This document shows, one piece after another, positions 18,524 to 23,733 of a stretch of DNA of 64,000 nt. Made by a program: the position numbers and the translations under genes. Within the stretch, counting starts at the first letter, position 1, and each line of letters begins with the position of its first letter. The notes under the pieces were generated by a model. The model ran no database searches. It had not been told where the DNA came from and worked only from the letters and a program-made list of their open reading frames with translations. This DNA is from Candidatus Bathyarchaeota archaeon (GTDB taxonomy: Archaea > Thermoproteota > Bathyarchaeia > Bathyarchaeales > Bathycorpusculaceae), in the NCBI GenBank assembly GCA_026014745.1, contig JAOZHS010000002.1:496001-560000 (forward strand), written 5' to 3'.

Positions 18524-18877
18524 ATGAAACTCTTACCTATACTTGGAGGTGTTGTGGCTGCGGTTGTGTTCTTCTTCGCAGTCATATTTGCGCTTGCAGC
18601 TTCGGTTGCGGCGCCTACCACGCGGCTTGCCACCAGCGGCATCCTATTCGTCATAGGCATCGTCATAATCGTCGGCGTATACTATACCACGCGCAAACCC
18701 AAAACCGTCATCCAGCGCTTTGAGGTCTCTGGGCAAATGGGTGCTGCCCAAATCAAATGTCCCCACTGTGGCGGCAGTGTTGAGGCTAGCCAAATCCAAA
18801 TATCGGGTGGTGTGCCTTATGTTAAGTGTCCGTATTGTGGGACAACGTTTGAGGTTGTTGAGAAACCAAAATGGTAA
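18524..18877 (+). CDS. Membrane protein with C-terminal zinc ribbon
   Basis: 117 residues. Two N-terminal hydrophobic segments (GVVAAVVFFFAVIFALAASVAA and SGILFVIGIVIIVGVYYTT) are followed by a cytoplasmic zinc ribbon CPHCGGSVEAS...CPYCGTTFEV near residues 79-109. It overlaps the next gene by 7 bases, so translation is probably coupled. The zinc ribbon may bind nucleic acid or protein. It forms the first gene of a unit with the Cys-tailed membrane protein and the radical SAM enzyme. Confidence 0.75.
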   Translation: MKLLPILGGVVAAVVFFFAVIFALAASVAAPTTRLATSGILFVIGIVIIVGVYYTTRKPKTVIQRFEVSGQMGAAQIKCPHCGGSVEASQIQISGGVPYVKCPYCGTTFEVVEKPKW

Positions 18878-20505
18878 ACCTCCGCGTGTTTGTGTTTGTT
18901 GCGTTGTTGGCTGTGGCGCTCTCAGCCTCCACCCTATGCCTCGCAGGCGCTCAAAGCAGCTTAGCGTATACAGTTGATCATGAATGGGCGCAGATATTCA
19001 TCAATCAGGACGGCACCATCGACTTAATCTACAACATTTCTGTCACGATTACACAGGGGTCTATGGGTGGCTTCTATGTGGGGCAACCCAACGGCGACTA
19101 CACGATTGGGGAAGCCCGTGACCAAAACGGGAACCCGCTTGAGGTTAACTATGCTGATGAGGGCAGCAACTACCGGGTGGATGTGCTTTTTAACCCGCGG
19201 TTGCAGGCGGGTCAATCCATGTGGTTTGAGGTCTCCACTAACGTGGCAGGCATGATAAGCAACGACACCCAAAACCCCGGCAACTACGGCATGCAATTCA
19301 TCCCCCAGTGGATAAGCGACACCCCAATCGACGATGTGCGCATCCAAATTGTGCTACCCCCGGGGGTTTCTACAGGTGACGTGAAAACCACACAGGAGAG
19401 CTATTACAATGGCACATCTATGGTGGATGGGCAATTGGCTGTTTACTGGGAACGCCCCCAAATCGGCGCAGGCGAACAGTTTATGGTTGGGGTCTCTTTT
19501 CCCAGCAGCGCCCTACCCAACTACACGCCCTCCGAGCCTTCAAGCGGTGGCCCCGATCTCTCCATAATCTTCCCAATTATCTTCGGCGTCTTTGCACTTA
19601 TCCTCATCATAGGCGTCATACGTGTTGCGCGAAAATCAGCCTACACTTCGCCTAAAGTCAGCATGGAGACACTCGGCGTCAAACGCGGCTTAACCGCCGT
19701 GGAAGCCGCTTACCTCTTGGACCTAAAACCGCCTCAGCTAGTCACCGCCATCCTCTACAGCCTACTTCAAAAACGCGCGGTTTGGGCACAAGAAACCAAG
19801 CCCTCCCTCAAACTCAAAGTGCTCCCACCCTACGAAGACAAAGTCGGACCCAAAGACAGTCCCCTGCGTTACTACGAAATAGATTTCCTCCGCGCTCTCC
19901 GCGCCGACGGAACCCTTGACGAAGAGAAACTGGCGCGAACAGTTATGTTTCTGCGAGATACGGTGGAGCAGAAGATGGAGGGTTTCAGCCGCAAGGACAC
20001 AGTGGCGTATTATGGGCGGATTGTAGCGGAGGCTTGGACGCAGGTGGAGCAAGCAGGAACCCCCGAGTTAGCCTCTAACGCTTACGATCAGCAGCTACTT
20101 TGGCTCATGTTAGACCCCAACCAACGCACCAAAACCGAAACCGCATTCCGAGACCGCGTGTTCACGCCTAACCCGTTGTGGTTCTGGTGGTGGTACGGCT
20201 ACACAGTTTATCATCCCCACCCCACCTATGTCCCCAACGTTTCCGTACCAGCCCAGTCGGGTCCAGCCCCAACCATTCCCGGCGCCCAATTCGCAAACAA
20301 CATCGCTACAGCCATCGAATCCACAGGCAACAACATCGTAGTCAACCTCGAAAAATTCGCCAACTCCATCGTCCCCGCCCCACCCAAAGCCAGCCACGAA
20401 CCAGCTCATAAAGGAGCCAACTGCGTATGCGCCTGCGCCGCATGTGCCTGCGCCTGTGCATGCGTCTCATGCGCTTGTGCCTGCGCTGGAGGAGGCGGAC
20501 ACTAA
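18871..20505 (+). CDS. DUF2207-like membrane protein with Cys-Ala repeat tail
   Basis: 544 residues. A signal sequence (residues 1-30, VFVALLAVALSASTLCLAGA) leads a large extracellular beta domain (HEWAQIFINQDGTIDLIYNISV onward). A membrane helix follows near residues 230-250 (LSIIFPIIFGVFALILIIGVI), then a cytoplasmic part with a winged-helix-like KRGLTAVEAAYLLDLKPPQL segment. This layout resembles DUF2207 proteins. The last 28 or so residues are almost only Cys, Ala and Gly, with ten Cys mostly spaced CxC, ending GGGGH. The radical SAM gene follows after one base; its ribosome site GGAGGAGG is formed by the codons of the Gly-rich end. The tail could be a substrate for that enzyme (inference). 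Confidence 0.75.
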   Translation: MVNLRVFVFVALLAVALSASTLCLAGAQSSLAYTVDHEWAQIFINQDGTIDLIYNISVTITQGSMGGFYVGQPNGDYTIGEARDQNGNPLEVNYADEGSNYRVDVLFNPRLQAGQSMWFEVSTNVAGMISNDTQNPGNYGMQFIPQWISDTPIDDVRIQIVLPPGVSTGDVKTTQESYYNGTSMVDGQLAVYWERPQIGAGEQFMVGVSFPSSALPNYTPSEPSSGGPDLSIIFPIIFGVFALILIIGVIRVARKSAYTSPKVSMETLGVKRGLTAVEAAYLLDLKPPQLVTAILYSLLQKRAVWAQETKPSLKLKVLPPYEDKVGPKDSPLRYYEIDFLRALRADGTLDEEKLARTVMFLRDTVEQKMEGFSRKDTVAYYGRIVAEAWTQVEQAGTPELASNAYDQQLLWLMLDPNQRTKTETAFRDRVFTPNPLWFWWWYGYTVYHPHPTYVPNVSVPAQSGPAPTIPGAQFANNIATAIESTGNNIVVNLEKFANSIVPAPPKASHEPAHKGANCVCACAACACACACVSCACACAGGGGH

Positions 20506-20506
20506 A

Positions 20507-21847
20507 ATGAGTTTCCTCAAAAAACAAAAGATACCCACAGGACGGTTTAGCTACCGCGCCGAAGACAAATACAAGGGCATGTCCCTGCAGCTCCGCGTTG
20601 AACCCAGCAGACAGGGCGTCATGGCGATTAACGCTAACACGATTCTGCACCTCAACCACACCGCAACCGCACTGGCATACTTTTTCATGCAGGGGCTACC
20701 TCAAGCGGAGGTGGTTAAGAAGATGCGAAGTCTCTACCGCGTCAGCGAGCAAACCGCCAACGCCGATTATGAGCAGCTTGTCTACACGATTAGTACGCTG
20801 GCGCAGACCGAAAAAATCGATCCCGTTACGTTTCTGCGCATCGAAAAGGAGGATCCCTTCACTTACCAGTACACCGCCCCGCTACGCATGGACTTGGCGT
20901 TGACTTTCCGTTGCCAAAACGACTGCGTGCACTGCTACGCTGGAGGACCACATGAAACCCCAGAATTGACGACGGAACAGTGGAAGGCAGTCATTGACAA
21001 ACTCAGCGACATCGGTGTCTTCATCTTAACCTTTACCGGCGGCGAACCCACACTCCGAGACGACCTGCCCGAGCTTTTGCTGTATGCTCAACATCGTGGC
21101 ATGGTCACGGGGCTAATTAGCAACGGGCGCCGCCTCAAAGACCCCGCCTACGTGGCACAATTAGAAAAGTCTGGGCTGGACTTTGTCCAAATCACCCTTG
21201 AATCCCACAAGCCATCCGTACACGACGCCATGACTCAATCTGAGGGCAGCTGGAAAGACACTGTGGTAGGCATCAAAAACGCGGTGCACTCCCAAATCTA
21301 CGTCTCCACCAACACCACCCTTAGCAAACAAAACGCTGACCACTTCCTAACAACCATCGACTACATCAAAGAACTCGGCGTCGACGCATTTGGCTGCAAC
21401 AGCCTCATCTACAGCGGTAAGGCGTCCCAAGCCAGCGATGAATTTGCGCTGTCCATCGAGCAGCTTAAGGTGCTGTTGCCGCAGGTCCGCGAAAAAGCGC
21501 AGATGCTTCAACTCAAATTCCTCTGGTACACGCCCACGCAGTACTGCCAATTTGACCCCGTCCAATACGGGCTGGGCCTAAAATCCTGTACAGCGGCTAT
21601 GATTACGGCATGTGTCGGACCCAACGGCGACGTGTACCCCTGCCAAAGCTACTTCGAATCACTCGGTAACATCCTCACTAAGCCGTGGGATACGATTTGG
21701 CGCAACCCCCTTGCCGAAAAGCTCCGCAAACGCGAATACGTGGAGGATAAGTGCAAGGATTGCGGTCAGTTGCAGGTTTGTGGCGGCGGATGCCCCCTTG
21801 AACTCCAAAATAAAAATATCAATAATCAAGCGGAAGGGGGCGCTTAA
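20507..21847 (+). CDS. Radical SAM/SPASM protein with PqqD-like N-terminus
   Basis: 446 residues from the ATG at 20507. Residues about 30-95 (GVMAINANTILHLNHTA, then SLYRVSEQTANADYEQLV) resemble a PqqD-type peptide-recognition element. The core has the CQNDCVHC cluster motif (CxxxCxxC), FTGGEPTLRDDLPELL and LISNGRRL. The C-terminal SPASM region carries further cysteines (CTAAMITACVGPNGDVYPCQSY and CKDCGQLQVCGGGCPLE) for auxiliary 4Fe-4S clusters. Enzymes with this layout modify peptides, often forming thioether or C-C links. The adjacent Cys-rich protein tail is an obvious candidate substrate. Confidence 0.9.
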   Translation: MSFLKKQKIPTGRFSYRAEDKYKGMSLQLRVEPSRQGVMAINANTILHLNHTATALAYFFMQGLPQAEVVKKMRSLYRVSEQTANADYEQLVYTISTLAQTEKIDPVTFLRIEKEDPFTYQYTAPLRMDLALTFRCQNDCVHCYAGGPHETPELTTEQWKAVIDKLSDIGVFILTFTGGEPTLRDDLPELLLYAQHRGMVTGLISNGRRLKDPAYVAQLEKSGLDFVQITLESHKPSVHDAMTQSEGSWKDTVVGIKNAVHSQIYVSTNTTLSKQNADHFLTTIDYIKELGVDAFGCNSLIYSGKASQASDEFALSIEQLKVLLPQVREKAQMLQLKFLWYTPTQYCQFDPVQYGLGLKSCTAAMITACVGPNGDVYPCQSYFESLGNILTKPWDTIWRNPLAEKLRKREYVEDKCKDCGQLQVCGGGCPLELQNKNINNQAEGGA

Positions 21848-22421
21848 CTTAGCTAAGAAATCCTTCGTTGTCGCAATTATTTCGGCATTAATACTGTCGA
21901 TGCTATCCGCAGTTTCTTTTGCTAGCGCCAATTTTATTCCAACAAATGCGGAAATTGACTTAATGGAGCCCTTGCCTAAAACAGTTAAAACCTACGATGC
22001 GGCGGACATCCCCATTGTTGTGGTTGTGAAAGAACCCCTCAATGCACCACAAAACTATCATCGCATCACCAACATTTACTACAGCATAGACGAATACCCG
22101 AACACAGAAATAACAAATATAACCGAATCGGAGAAAGATTGGTTTAGCGGCACCTGTACGGAGTATCGTGCAAGCGCAAGCATAGCGAATTTAACAGCAG
22201 GTAACCATACTTTGAGGGCTTACAGCGTTGATGACCTTGGAAATCGCTTATCAACAACTCGCGAATTTGCATACCAACCAGATTTATCCTCAAACGAAAT
22301 AAATACTGAATCTTCAGGTTTTGATTATACACCTGTTTTGATTGTTGGTTTAATTGCAATCAGTGTAGTTGGATGCGGCGTATTCTTTTTCAAAAAACAC
22401 AAAGCTCAGCCGCTAACCTAA
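21798..22421 (+). CDS. Secreted/anchored protein with C-terminal membrane helix
   Basis: About 207 residues. I use a TTG at 21798 (GGCGG 8 bases upstream), which overlaps the radical SAM gene by 50 bases; no other standard start fits before the signal peptide. The N-terminal signal is KKSFVVAIISALILSMLSAVSFASA. An Ig-like extracellular domain follows (ANLTAGNHTLRAYSVDDLGN), then a C-terminal helix VLIVGLIAISVVGCGVFFF and the basic end KKHKAQ. It is common as a cell-surface protein type. Whether it belongs functionally with the radical SAM unit is unknown. Confidence 0.65.
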   Translation: MNSKIKISIIKRKGALNLAKKSFVVAIISALILSMLSAVSFASANFIPTNAEIDLMEPLPKTVKTYDAADIPIVVVVKEPLNAPQNYHRITNIYYSIDEYPNTEITNITESEKDWFSGTCTEYRASASIANLTAGNHTLRAYSVDDLGNRLSTTREFAYQPDLSSNEINTESSGFDYTPVLIVGLIAISVVGCGVFFFKKHKAQPLT

Positions 22422-22497: not shown

Positions 22498-23733
22498 ATG
22501 GAGTCCATGCAGAAGCCCCGCCTTGTTGTTTTCGACGTTGAAGGAGTACTTATCCCCAAAAACCGCTTCTTCTTTGAAGTGGGCCGAACCTTGGGGTTCT
22601 GGAAGCTGATTCGACTGCTCCTGTTGGGTTTTCTCTATGAAGTGGGCGCGCTTAGACTAGATTCTGCTCTTCGCCGCATCTTTGGCGAAATGCACGGCAT
22701 GAAACTCGAAACTATGGCGGAGGTTTTTAATCGGATTCCCGCGTCGCCTTATCTGCAAGGTTTTTTTGAGCAACTCCACAGTCGCGGCTGCAAAATCGCG
22801 CTTATCAGCTCTGGGCTGCCCACGATTCTTGTCGAGAAGTTAGCGGAATGCGTCGGCGCACAATACGCCTATGGCATTGACGTGGAGATTGTGAACGGTA
22901 GAGTGACAGGGAAAATTGGGGGCGATGCCATCGAAAAAAATGGCAAACTCAAAATCTTTAGCCGCATCATCACCCAAGAGAACCTTCGCCTACGGGACTG
23001 CGCCGTGGTGGCAGATGACCGCAATAACAGTTGCCTCTATTTGCCAGGGATGCTTAAAATCGGTTTTAACCCCGACTTCGTATTGCGGGTCAAAGCGGAC
23101 CGCGTCGTGAACGGTAGACTCCAAGGCATAATCCCCATAATCGACGGCGAACCCCACAAACGCTCCTTTCCCTCCACCAACGATTTCGTTCGTGAAGATA
23201 TCCATGCTTCAGGCATCTTTATGCCCGTCATCGCCTCCCTCATCGGCGTCCCCATAGTCGCATCCATAATCATTGTAATCGCCATAATCTACACGGCATC
23301 CGAGCTTTTCCGTCTCCAAGGCCGCCAACTCCCCTTCATCTCCGCCGTCACCCGCCACGCAGCTTCCCAGTCAGAAATCTACGGTTTCGCCGCTGCCCCG
23401 CTCTATTTTGCCTGCGGCATAGTTTTGACGTTGGTGCTTTTCCCTGCTCAAGCCGCGGGGGCAGCCATCGCGATGTTTTGCCTCGGCGACAGCACGGCTT
23501 CTTTGTTTGGCGGGATGATTTCGACGTCTCTGCCGTTTAATAAGGGTAAAACTTGGGAGGGGTCTTTGGTGGGTTTCTTTTTTGCTTTTTTGGCAGGCTG
23601 CTTCTTTGTTCCGCCTCAAATCGCGTTGATAGGCGCCGCAATAGCCATGACAGTAGAAGTTTTGCCGCTACCCCTAAATGATAACGTACTCATACCCGTC
23701 ATAACTGGCGCAGCGCTGACGTTGCTACTTTAG
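22498..23733 (+). CDS. HAD phosphatase fused to dolichol-kinase/CDP-DAG synthase-like membrane domain
   Basis: 411 residues in two parts. Residues 1-225 form a HAD-IB phosphatase of SerB/ThrH type: VVFDVEGVLIP (nucleophile Asp; Glu in place of the usual second Asp, as in ThrH), LISSGLP, and VADDRNNSCLY. Residues 240-411 have several membrane helices with GDSTASLFGG, NKGKTWEGSLVGF and EVLPLPLNDN, the CTP-binding signature shared by dolichol kinase and phosphatidate cytidylyltransferase-like enzymes. The fusion suggests one protein that both adds and removes phosphate on an isoprenoid alcohol or lipid (inference). It is a single gene with a start near an AAGGT ribosome site. Confidence 0.8.
   Translation: MESMQKPRLVVFDVEGVLIPKNRFFFEVGRTLGFWKLIRLLLLGFLYEVGALRLDSALRRIFGEMHGMKLETMAEVFNRIPASPYLQGFFEQLHSRGCKIALISSGLPTILVEKLAECVGAQYAYGIDVEIVNGRVTGKIGGDAIEKNGKLKIFSRIITQENLRLRDCAVVADDRNNSCLYLPGMLKIGFNPDFVLRVKADRVVNGRLQGIIPIIDGEPHKRSFPSTNDFVREDIHASGIFMPVIASLIGVPIVASIIIVIAIIYTASELFRLQGRQLPFISAVTRHAASQSEIYGFAAAPLYFACGIVLTLVLFPAQAAGAAIAMFCLGDSTASLFGGMISTSLPFNKGKTWEGSLVGFFFAFLAGCFFVPPQIALIGAAIAMTVEVLPLPLNDNVLIPVITGAALTLLL

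Follow-up and report, generated by a model that had tools for sequence, protein, structure and literature searches.

A conserved archaeal three-gene module couples a Cys-Ala-tailed membrane protein to a radical SAM/SPASM enzyme that probably modifies its tail

The window analysed here is a stretch of 64,000 nucleotides from Candidatus Bathyarchaeota archaeon (contig JAOZHS010000002.1, positions 496,001 to 560,000). It harbors three adjoining genes which encode a small zinc-ribbon membrane protein, a larger membrane protein with a C-terminal tail of alternating Cys and Ala, and a radical SAM/SPASM enzyme. The 3' end of the zinc-ribbon gene and the start of the tailed gene overlap by 7 bases; the stop codon of the tailed gene (20503-20505) is followed by a single base (A20506) and then by the enzyme ATG at 20507. 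The features are as follows (positions in the window).

18524..18877, + strand: zinc-ribbon membrane protein, 117 aa, third gene of the module (ORF list, TIGR02098 match, adjacency, hydropathy)
18871..20505, + strand: tailed DUF2207-like membrane protein, 544 aa
20281..20370, + strand: conserved helical segment ahead of the tail, aa 471-500, putative docking site
20422..20502, + strand: Cys-Ala tail CVCACAACACACACVSCACACAGGGGH, aa 518-544, proposed modification site
20488..20495, + strand: GGAGGAGG, likely ribosome-binding site of the enzyme gene, within the Gly codons of the tail
20507..21847, + strand: radical SAM/SPASM enzyme, 446 aa (PF04055, E 1.3e-23; PF13186, E 1.4e-10)
20540..20806, + strand: PqqD-like N-terminal peptide-recognition domain, aa 12-100 (PF05402 in relatives; modelled strands, then three helices)
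20912..20935, + strand: CxxxCxxC motif of the radical SAM cluster (C136, C140, C143)
21545..21793, + strand: C347 and the SPASM cysteines C361, C379, C416, C419, C425 and C429

The ORF translation bears out the Cys-rich CxC tail with a GGGGH end that the original prediction had placed on the 18871-20505 protein: in the window copy the C-terminal 27 residues, CVCACAACACACACVSCACACAGGGGH, contain ten Cys (C518, 520, 522, 525, 527, 529, 531, 534, 536 and 538). The tail is present in all 62 intact relatives and is the best-conserved 25-residue stretch of the aligned protein, with a mean majority residue per site of 95% as compared to 56% for the protein body, which diverges up to 71% among relatives that all retain the tail. 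Family tails carry nine or ten Cys per 22 residues, and many of the Ala spacers are kept as strictly as the Cys, seven sites being identical in 62/62. A chance or simple-repeat origin is rejected on account of the reversed-pattern control (0 matches against 49 for the tail pattern in 251 Bathyarchaeia genomes), codon variation (12.35 synonymous versus 1.58 amino-acid differences per pair over 22 codons) and the ORF background, since among 1906 ORFs of at least 100 codons in the retrieved locus DNA those with at least seven Cys in the last 30 residues are exclusively members of this family. Four other CACACA matches in Thermoproteota (L111, L113, L120, L121) fall within unrelated ORFs and appear fortuitous. 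Viral contigs gave six matches to the tail pattern, with the module in none of them and low-complexity ORFs in the readable ones. That the ribosome site of the enzyme gene is built from tail codons, as had been proposed, is plausible, with GGAGGAGG located within the Gly codons at 20488-20495.

The tailed protein consists of a signal or first helix, an outer beta domain (ca. residues 31-215), a membrane helix (230-253) and a cytosolic region of winged-helix-like and helical parts (ca. 259-500), after which the tail follows. Lys and Arg are enriched C-terminal to the membrane helix in 62/62 relatives, and the tail is predicted to face the cytosol in all of them. The folded regions have majority-residue fractions of 0.56-0.70; residues 469-503 reach a mean of 0.70 versus 0.46 in the flanking linkers, and the structure model places helices at 471-489 and 493-500. 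The designation 'DUF2207-like' holds at the level of the family, of which 12/62 relatives match PF09972 (best E 1.6e-5), but the window protein itself has no Pfam match. A sequence search for solved relatives gave none that is convincing, while the fold of the outer domain is similar to those of ribophorin I and the N-terminal domain of M1 aminopeptidase.

The assignment of the gene one base downstream to a radical SAM enzyme with SPASM cysteines is confirmed by its motifs, by its Pfam matches and by the position of the ATG. Both Pfam domains are matched in 61/61 family members, and C136/140/143 as well as the six SPASM cysteines are invariant in the 61 relatives. C347 is likewise invariant within the family and is missing from the nearest outgroup enzymes. 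The PqqD-like N-terminal element also proved to be real: PF05402 matches 41/61 members (best E 1.2e-5), and strands and three helices are modelled, with the window enzyme's own score lying below the Pfam cut-off (15.9 vs 23.4 bits). The enzyme model (pTM 0.87) has peptide maturases as its nearest solved folds, with SkfB as the best match along with SuiB, CteB (5why) and PqqE.

In the 117-aa protein, two hydrophobic helices are combined with a zinc ribbon (CPHC...CPYC) at the C-terminus, which ends in VEKPKW; the protein matches the MJ0042-type zinc finger TIGR02098 at 30.1 bits (cut-off 20.9). This gene was absent from the original account of the locus. A homologue adjoins the tailed gene in 60/62 intact loci, and the tailed protein, the enzyme and the zinc-ribbon protein form a conserved unit, a three-gene archaeal module. 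Other neighbours were rejected as members: the downstream HAD gene (22498-23733) recurs in 18 loci only, all of the window's family, and the upstream flavodoxin gene in one other locus only. The scanned window neighbours gave no match to MNIO, the recurrent enzyme neighbour being the radical SAM/SPASM protein.

Taking E<=1e-60 as the threshold for enzyme presence in genomes of the class, the expected co-occurrence was found throughout, with the tailed protein in 68/68 enzyme-bearing Bathyarchaeia genomes. The data contradict the converse possibility, that enzyme homologues never have a Cys-tailed neighbour: almost all intact homologues have one. The window's genus has both genes in 14 genomes and neither in 17, body and enzyme distances correlate (r=0.95), and two genomes in which the locus is rearranged still keep protein, enzyme and zinc-ribbon gene together. 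A tail-free protein profile retrieved no tailless intact member from 398 Thermoproteota genomes. The five class genomes in which the tailed protein occurs without the enzyme have either truncated copies, three of which lie at contig ends, or a disrupted enzyme gene. Both genes are decayed in G006, and L099, the one enzyme copy of the class that stands alone, no longer has its full set of cluster cysteines, leaving CxxxCxxC incomplete. Three further enzyme copies (G460, G569, G513), one at a contig end, come from genomes in which neither tail nor protein was found; they are deep-branching and nested within the tailed clade, a position that points to loss, incomplete assembly or a different substrate. 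A search of plasmids gave one weak radical SAM match, in Paenibacillus. Co-inheritance by itself is no proof of substrate identity.

We consider it likely that this is a protein-maturation module, in which the enzyme modifies the Cys-Ala tail of the membrane protein in place, most likely by forming thioethers; the target would probably be this tail rather than a free peptide. The data establish that tail, protein, enzyme and zinc-ribbon gene are conserved together, and they give the family and fold of the enzyme and a predicted topology; that the tail serves as substrate, where the enzyme docks, which bond it makes and what the module does in the cell are inferred. The membrane protein would present its disordered Cys-Ala tail on the cytosolic side, where the PqqD-like domain may bind the cytosolic C-terminal region, probably at helix 471-500. 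The enzyme would then use a 5'-deoxyadenosyl radical to modify the tail, the most likely products being cross-links from Cys sulfur to carbon (thioethers) within the alternating Cys-Ala stretch. The modified tail would remain on the membrane protein, where it probably provides a rigid patch of thiols with metal or redox activity, and the zinc-ribbon membrane protein would be a partner, perhaps as a subunit for docking, assembly or sensing. Thioethers between Cys and Ala have precedent in thuricin CD Trn-beta and ruminococcin C1, but AlbA refuses Ala as a substitute for its natural acceptors (PMC8172795).

Modification of the tail by other chemistry, such as C-C cross-links, epimerisation, Cys oxidation or backbone changes leading to a metal-binding or redox group, appears rather unlikely to us. 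SPASM enzymes with a recognition domain are known for many reactions, the nearest folds include PqqE and SuiB (which forms a Lys-Trp C-C bond), and the bacterial parallel discussed below relies on Cys-modifying MNIO enzymes (PMC12452194); however, SkfB, which matches best by fold, makes thioethers, and chemistry at sulfur is favoured because ten invariant or near-invariant Cys alternate with Ala. CxC spacing is typical of metal thiolate sites, and ten such thiols could bind metal unmodified. A reading in which the tail stays unmodified and forms a metal or Fe-S site at the cytosolic face, much like a metallothionein, while the enzyme acts on another part of the protein or on another molecule, would also accord with the zinc-ribbon partner and with the few enzyme copies that occur without a tail. 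We nevertheless think this improbable, since the strict Ala spacers exceed the needs of metal binding, the enzyme carries a peptide-recognition domain, and the 398 Thermoproteota genomes yielded no intact protein that lacks the tail.

The tail might instead be a core peptide that, once modified, is cut from the protein to yield a free small molecule or cofactor in the manner of PQQ or mycofactocin, the protein being a mere carrier. The succession of conserved helix, variable linker and conserved tail resembles a leader and core, and PqqE is a near fold, but the loci read contain no recurrent protease or exporter gene and the protein body is itself well conserved in its folded regions, so we give this reading a slight chance at best. 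That constraint on the RNA, for example on the ribosome site in the Gly codons, maintains the Gly and Cys codons has a negligible probability: tail codons vary freely while the residues do not, and RNA-level constraint is rejected because the tail persists in L116 and L117, two loci without the enzyme gene downstream.

If modification of the tail in place is correct, radical SAM peptide chemistry would no longer be confined to free precursors but would also reach a segment that a membrane protein keeps permanently. The setting is Bathyarchaeia and other Thermoproteota, which have few cultured members, and the module would provide a well-defined, testable pair of enzyme and substrate, represented by 60-odd natural variants, along with a named third partner gene. 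We suggest only tentatively that it represents a widespread archaeal system in which a cross-linked Cys-Ala structure forms an attached, cytosolic, metal- or redox-active or sensing tail, the protein-anchored counterpart of free modified peptides, with an origin parallel to that of the bacterial MNIO/TIGR04222 system.

Similar to the sactipeptide and ranthipeptide maturases SkfB, AlbA, CteB and RumMC, the archaeal enzyme combines a radical SAM core, SPASM cysteines and an N-terminal recognition domain with a nearby Cys-rich candidate substrate. Those maturases act on short free precursors, whereas the candidate here is the C-terminus of a 544-aa membrane protein and thus falls outside the classic RiPP definition of a short free precursor with leader and core. 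A repetitive Cys-rich target adjoining a SPASM enzyme gene is shared with the SCIFF and ACGX-repeat systems. SCIFF, however, is a small peptide with six Cys in 45 residues, as compared to nine or ten in 22, and the ACGX system differs in its repeat (not CxC/Ala), in its small peptide target and in its enzyme, the archaeal protein scoring 72.7 bits on TIGR04340 against a cut-off of 400. Action of a radical SAM enzyme on a full protein, as proposed here, is shared with QhpD and anSME. The targets of these enzymes are enzyme subunits or active sites, unlike the repetitive tail of a membrane protein. In the case of QhpD, Cys thioethers are made in a protein subunit (PMC8326336).

DUF2207 proteins have an outer N-terminal domain, a membrane helix, an intracellular C-terminal part and a low-complexity end (PMC10457818). 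The archaeal protein has the same topology, with weak Pfam matches, but ordinary DUF2207 ends are described as Gly/Ser-rich whereas the archaeal tail is Cys/Ala and linked to a radical SAM gene; a literature search found no paper combining 'DUF2207' and 'radical SAM'. The closest known parallel is that of the bacterial Cys-tailed TIGR04222 membrane proteins encoded beside MNIO (DUF692) enzymes, where a Cys-rich low-complexity C-terminal tail is the proposed substrate of the adjoining metalloenzyme (PMC12452194). Both systems place a Cys-tailed membrane protein next to a peptide-modifying metalloenzyme, and in two archaeal members the membrane helix and the region after it weakly resemble TIGR04222 (E 4.6e-4 and 0.16), the better match scoring 19.9 bits, below the curated cut-off of 43 bits. 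The enzyme class differs (radical SAM/SPASM versus MNIO), as does the tail, which is strictly CxC/Ala and predicted to be cytosolic in the archaea but Ser/Gly with scattered Cys and periplasmic in TIGR04222 proteins. The association is near-obligatory in the archaeal module, whereas one third of TIGR04222 genomes lack MNIO genes (PMC12452194). The module described here would thus be an archaeal parallel to these unexplained bacterial membrane proteins.

The Cys-tailed membrane protein of the window and its adjacent radical SAM enzyme belong to a unit of three genes, all on the forward strand:

18524-18877, +, zinc-ribbon membrane protein of 117 amino acids with two hydrophobic helices and an MJ0042-type zinc ribbon
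18871-20505, +, DUF2207-like membrane protein of 544 amino acids (the tailed protein)
20507-21847, +, radical SAM/SPASM enzyme of 446 amino acids

The tailed protein has the C-terminus CVCACAACACACACVSCACACAGGGGH with ten cysteines, and the enzyme gene starts one base past its stop codon, both as originally predicted. The Gly codons of the tail form the ribosome-site-like stretch GGAGGAGG at 20488-20495, in agreement with the proposal that the ribosome site of the enzyme lies inside the tail codons. Pfam searches with the enzyme returned radical SAM (E 1.3e-23), SPASM (E 1.4e-10) and a weak PqqD match, the latter domain being matched by 41 of 61 family members, which bears out the SPASM cysteines and PqqD-like N-terminus read from the sequence; none of the best 25 NCBIfam models listed reached its equivalog cut-off. 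The best fold matches of the enzyme model (pTM 0.87) include SkfB, SuiB, CteB and PqqE. Across the family the CxxxCxxC cysteines, the SPASM cysteines and C347 (window 21545-21547) are invariant. The nearest outgroup enzymes lack C347, which is possibly a ligand of an extra cluster or a catalytic ligand.

The window comes from a 2.7 Mb assembly of 3 contigs, and the first relatives were found in eight loci from public genomes (Bathyarchaeota MAGs). The tailed gene and enzyme gene were paired in all seven of these loci that extend to the C-terminus, and the tail was the best-conserved segment despite differing codons. Among the 251 Bathyarchaeia genomes a degenerate tail pattern gave 49 matches in 48 genomes and the reversed pattern, used as a control, gave none; in the loci obtained, the tail ends proteins of one family with the enzyme adjacent. 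One copy (L039) stops 79 bases short of the contig end, in L049 the tailed gene is broken by a stop codon, and in genome G006 both genes have decayed. Extraction from all loci yielded intact sequences of 62 tailed proteins and of 62 enzymes. Where both genes are intact (54 loci), the enzyme is directly downstream in 53, with gaps of -4 to 36 bases, and rearranged in one.

Searches placed the enzyme (E<=1e-60) in 68 and the tailed protein in 73 of the 251 genomes, and all 68 enzyme-bearing genomes lie within the 73, so that the co-occurrence expected from the original prediction was found (naive Fisher p 5.6e-56, ignoring the relatedness of genomes). The five others are contig-end fragments (G081, G084, G159), a truncated copy (G224) and a broken enzyme gene (G199). 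Within the genus of the window, 14 genomes have both genes and 17 have neither. A profile made without the tail matched 29 of 398 Thermoproteota genomes, and since every copy with a readable C-terminus carries the tail, no tailless member of the family was found. Four genomes beyond the class have the tailed protein (L112, L115, L116, L117); L116 and L117 have the enzyme gene on the upstream instead of the downstream side, still in the neighbourhood. The case for linkage and conservation of the two proteins is strong. The predicted pair holds, but the zinc-ribbon gene is also part of the unit: 60 of the 62 intact loci have a homologue of it beside the tailed gene, and the protein has a conserved C-terminal (E/K)P(K/T/L)W. 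The remaining two are a contig edge (L055) and a true absence (L115), and in L116 and L117 the gene is divergent with adjacency kept.

Three high-scoring enzymes among the 398 phylum genomes (G460, G569, G513) occur in assemblies in which neither tailed protein nor tail was found, one of the searches behind this absence having been run without a positive control. In the tree these enzymes fall within the tailed copies, which makes a loss or a gap in the sequence the likely explanation. The only lone copy within the class is a second enzyme gene in G041 (L099, 2134-3420), with no tailed gene nearby; it has lost one cysteine of the radical-SAM motif as well as those of SPASM, and is a paralogue in decay or a pseudo-enzyme. 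At L122 (4273-6791) and L123 (977-6028) relatives of the enzyme also lack a tailed neighbour; in both loci a putative aldehyde ferredoxin oxidoreductase gene, named on a reading of the sequence, has a second Cys-rich radical SAM gene next to it.

Directly past the enzyme gene, the window encodes an ectodomain-plus-helix protein (21850-22421), which is probably a local insertion as no match was found in the other loci. A HAD hydrolase with a fused membrane domain of several helices (window 22498-23733) is conserved on the downstream side of the module, in 18 loci and in the window's family only.

In the 62 tailed proteins the mean majority-residue fraction is 0.95 for the tail, as compared to 0.56 for the body and 0.77 for the best other 25-residue window. 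Over 22 tail codons there are, per sequence pair, 12.35 synonymous and 1.58 amino-acid differences, with both Cys and Ala positions conserved. The tail follows a conserved helical segment (469-503; 0.70) and a variable linker (504-517; 0.46), an order that resembles a leader-linker-core layout. In the predicted structure (mean pLDDT 83) the tail is disordered and the modelled outer domain has fold likeness to ribophorin I and the M1 aminopeptidase N-terminal domain. Because all 62 proteins are richer in Lys and Arg on the C-terminal flank of the membrane helix, the tail is predicted to be cytosolic, where the enzyme would be. Long Cys-Ala/Asp repeats (CACACDCGG) also end an ORF on a viral-collection contig (L135, 7660-8160); no radical SAM relative was found on the stretch examined.

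The tail is likely modified by the enzyme. The PqqD-like domain would bind the region preceding the tail, and radical chemistry would join Cys sulfur to neighbouring carbons. We consider this explanation as a whole, docking before the tail followed by its modification, reasonably probable; the bond type is a proposal and less certain. By analogy with the Cys-to-Ala thioethers known in thuricin CD Trn-beta and ruminococcin C1, Ala is a possible acceptor in the tail; Ala mutants were not accepted by AlbA (PMC8172795). A metal, redox or sensing role of the modified tail is a guess.

General predictions of radical-SAM RiPP clusters in archaea exist (PMC12144867), and no description of this pair was found in the literature searched. 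The original assignment as DUF2207-like fits in topology; the window's protein itself has no Pfam match, nor an NCBIfam match. Bacterial DUF2207 proteins have the N-terminal part outside and a Gly/Ser-rich C-terminal part inside the cell (PMC10457818), the same topology as predicted for the tailed protein. In bacteria, TIGR04222 membrane proteins whose C-terminal tails contain Cys are encoded next to MNIO enzymes and are proposed to be their substrates (PMC12452194). Because two tailed proteins (L096, residues 229-350; L051, residues 241-357) resemble TIGR04222, below its score threshold, in the membrane helix and the part after it, the archaeal and MNIO-linked systems may share a scaffold while differing in their enzymes.
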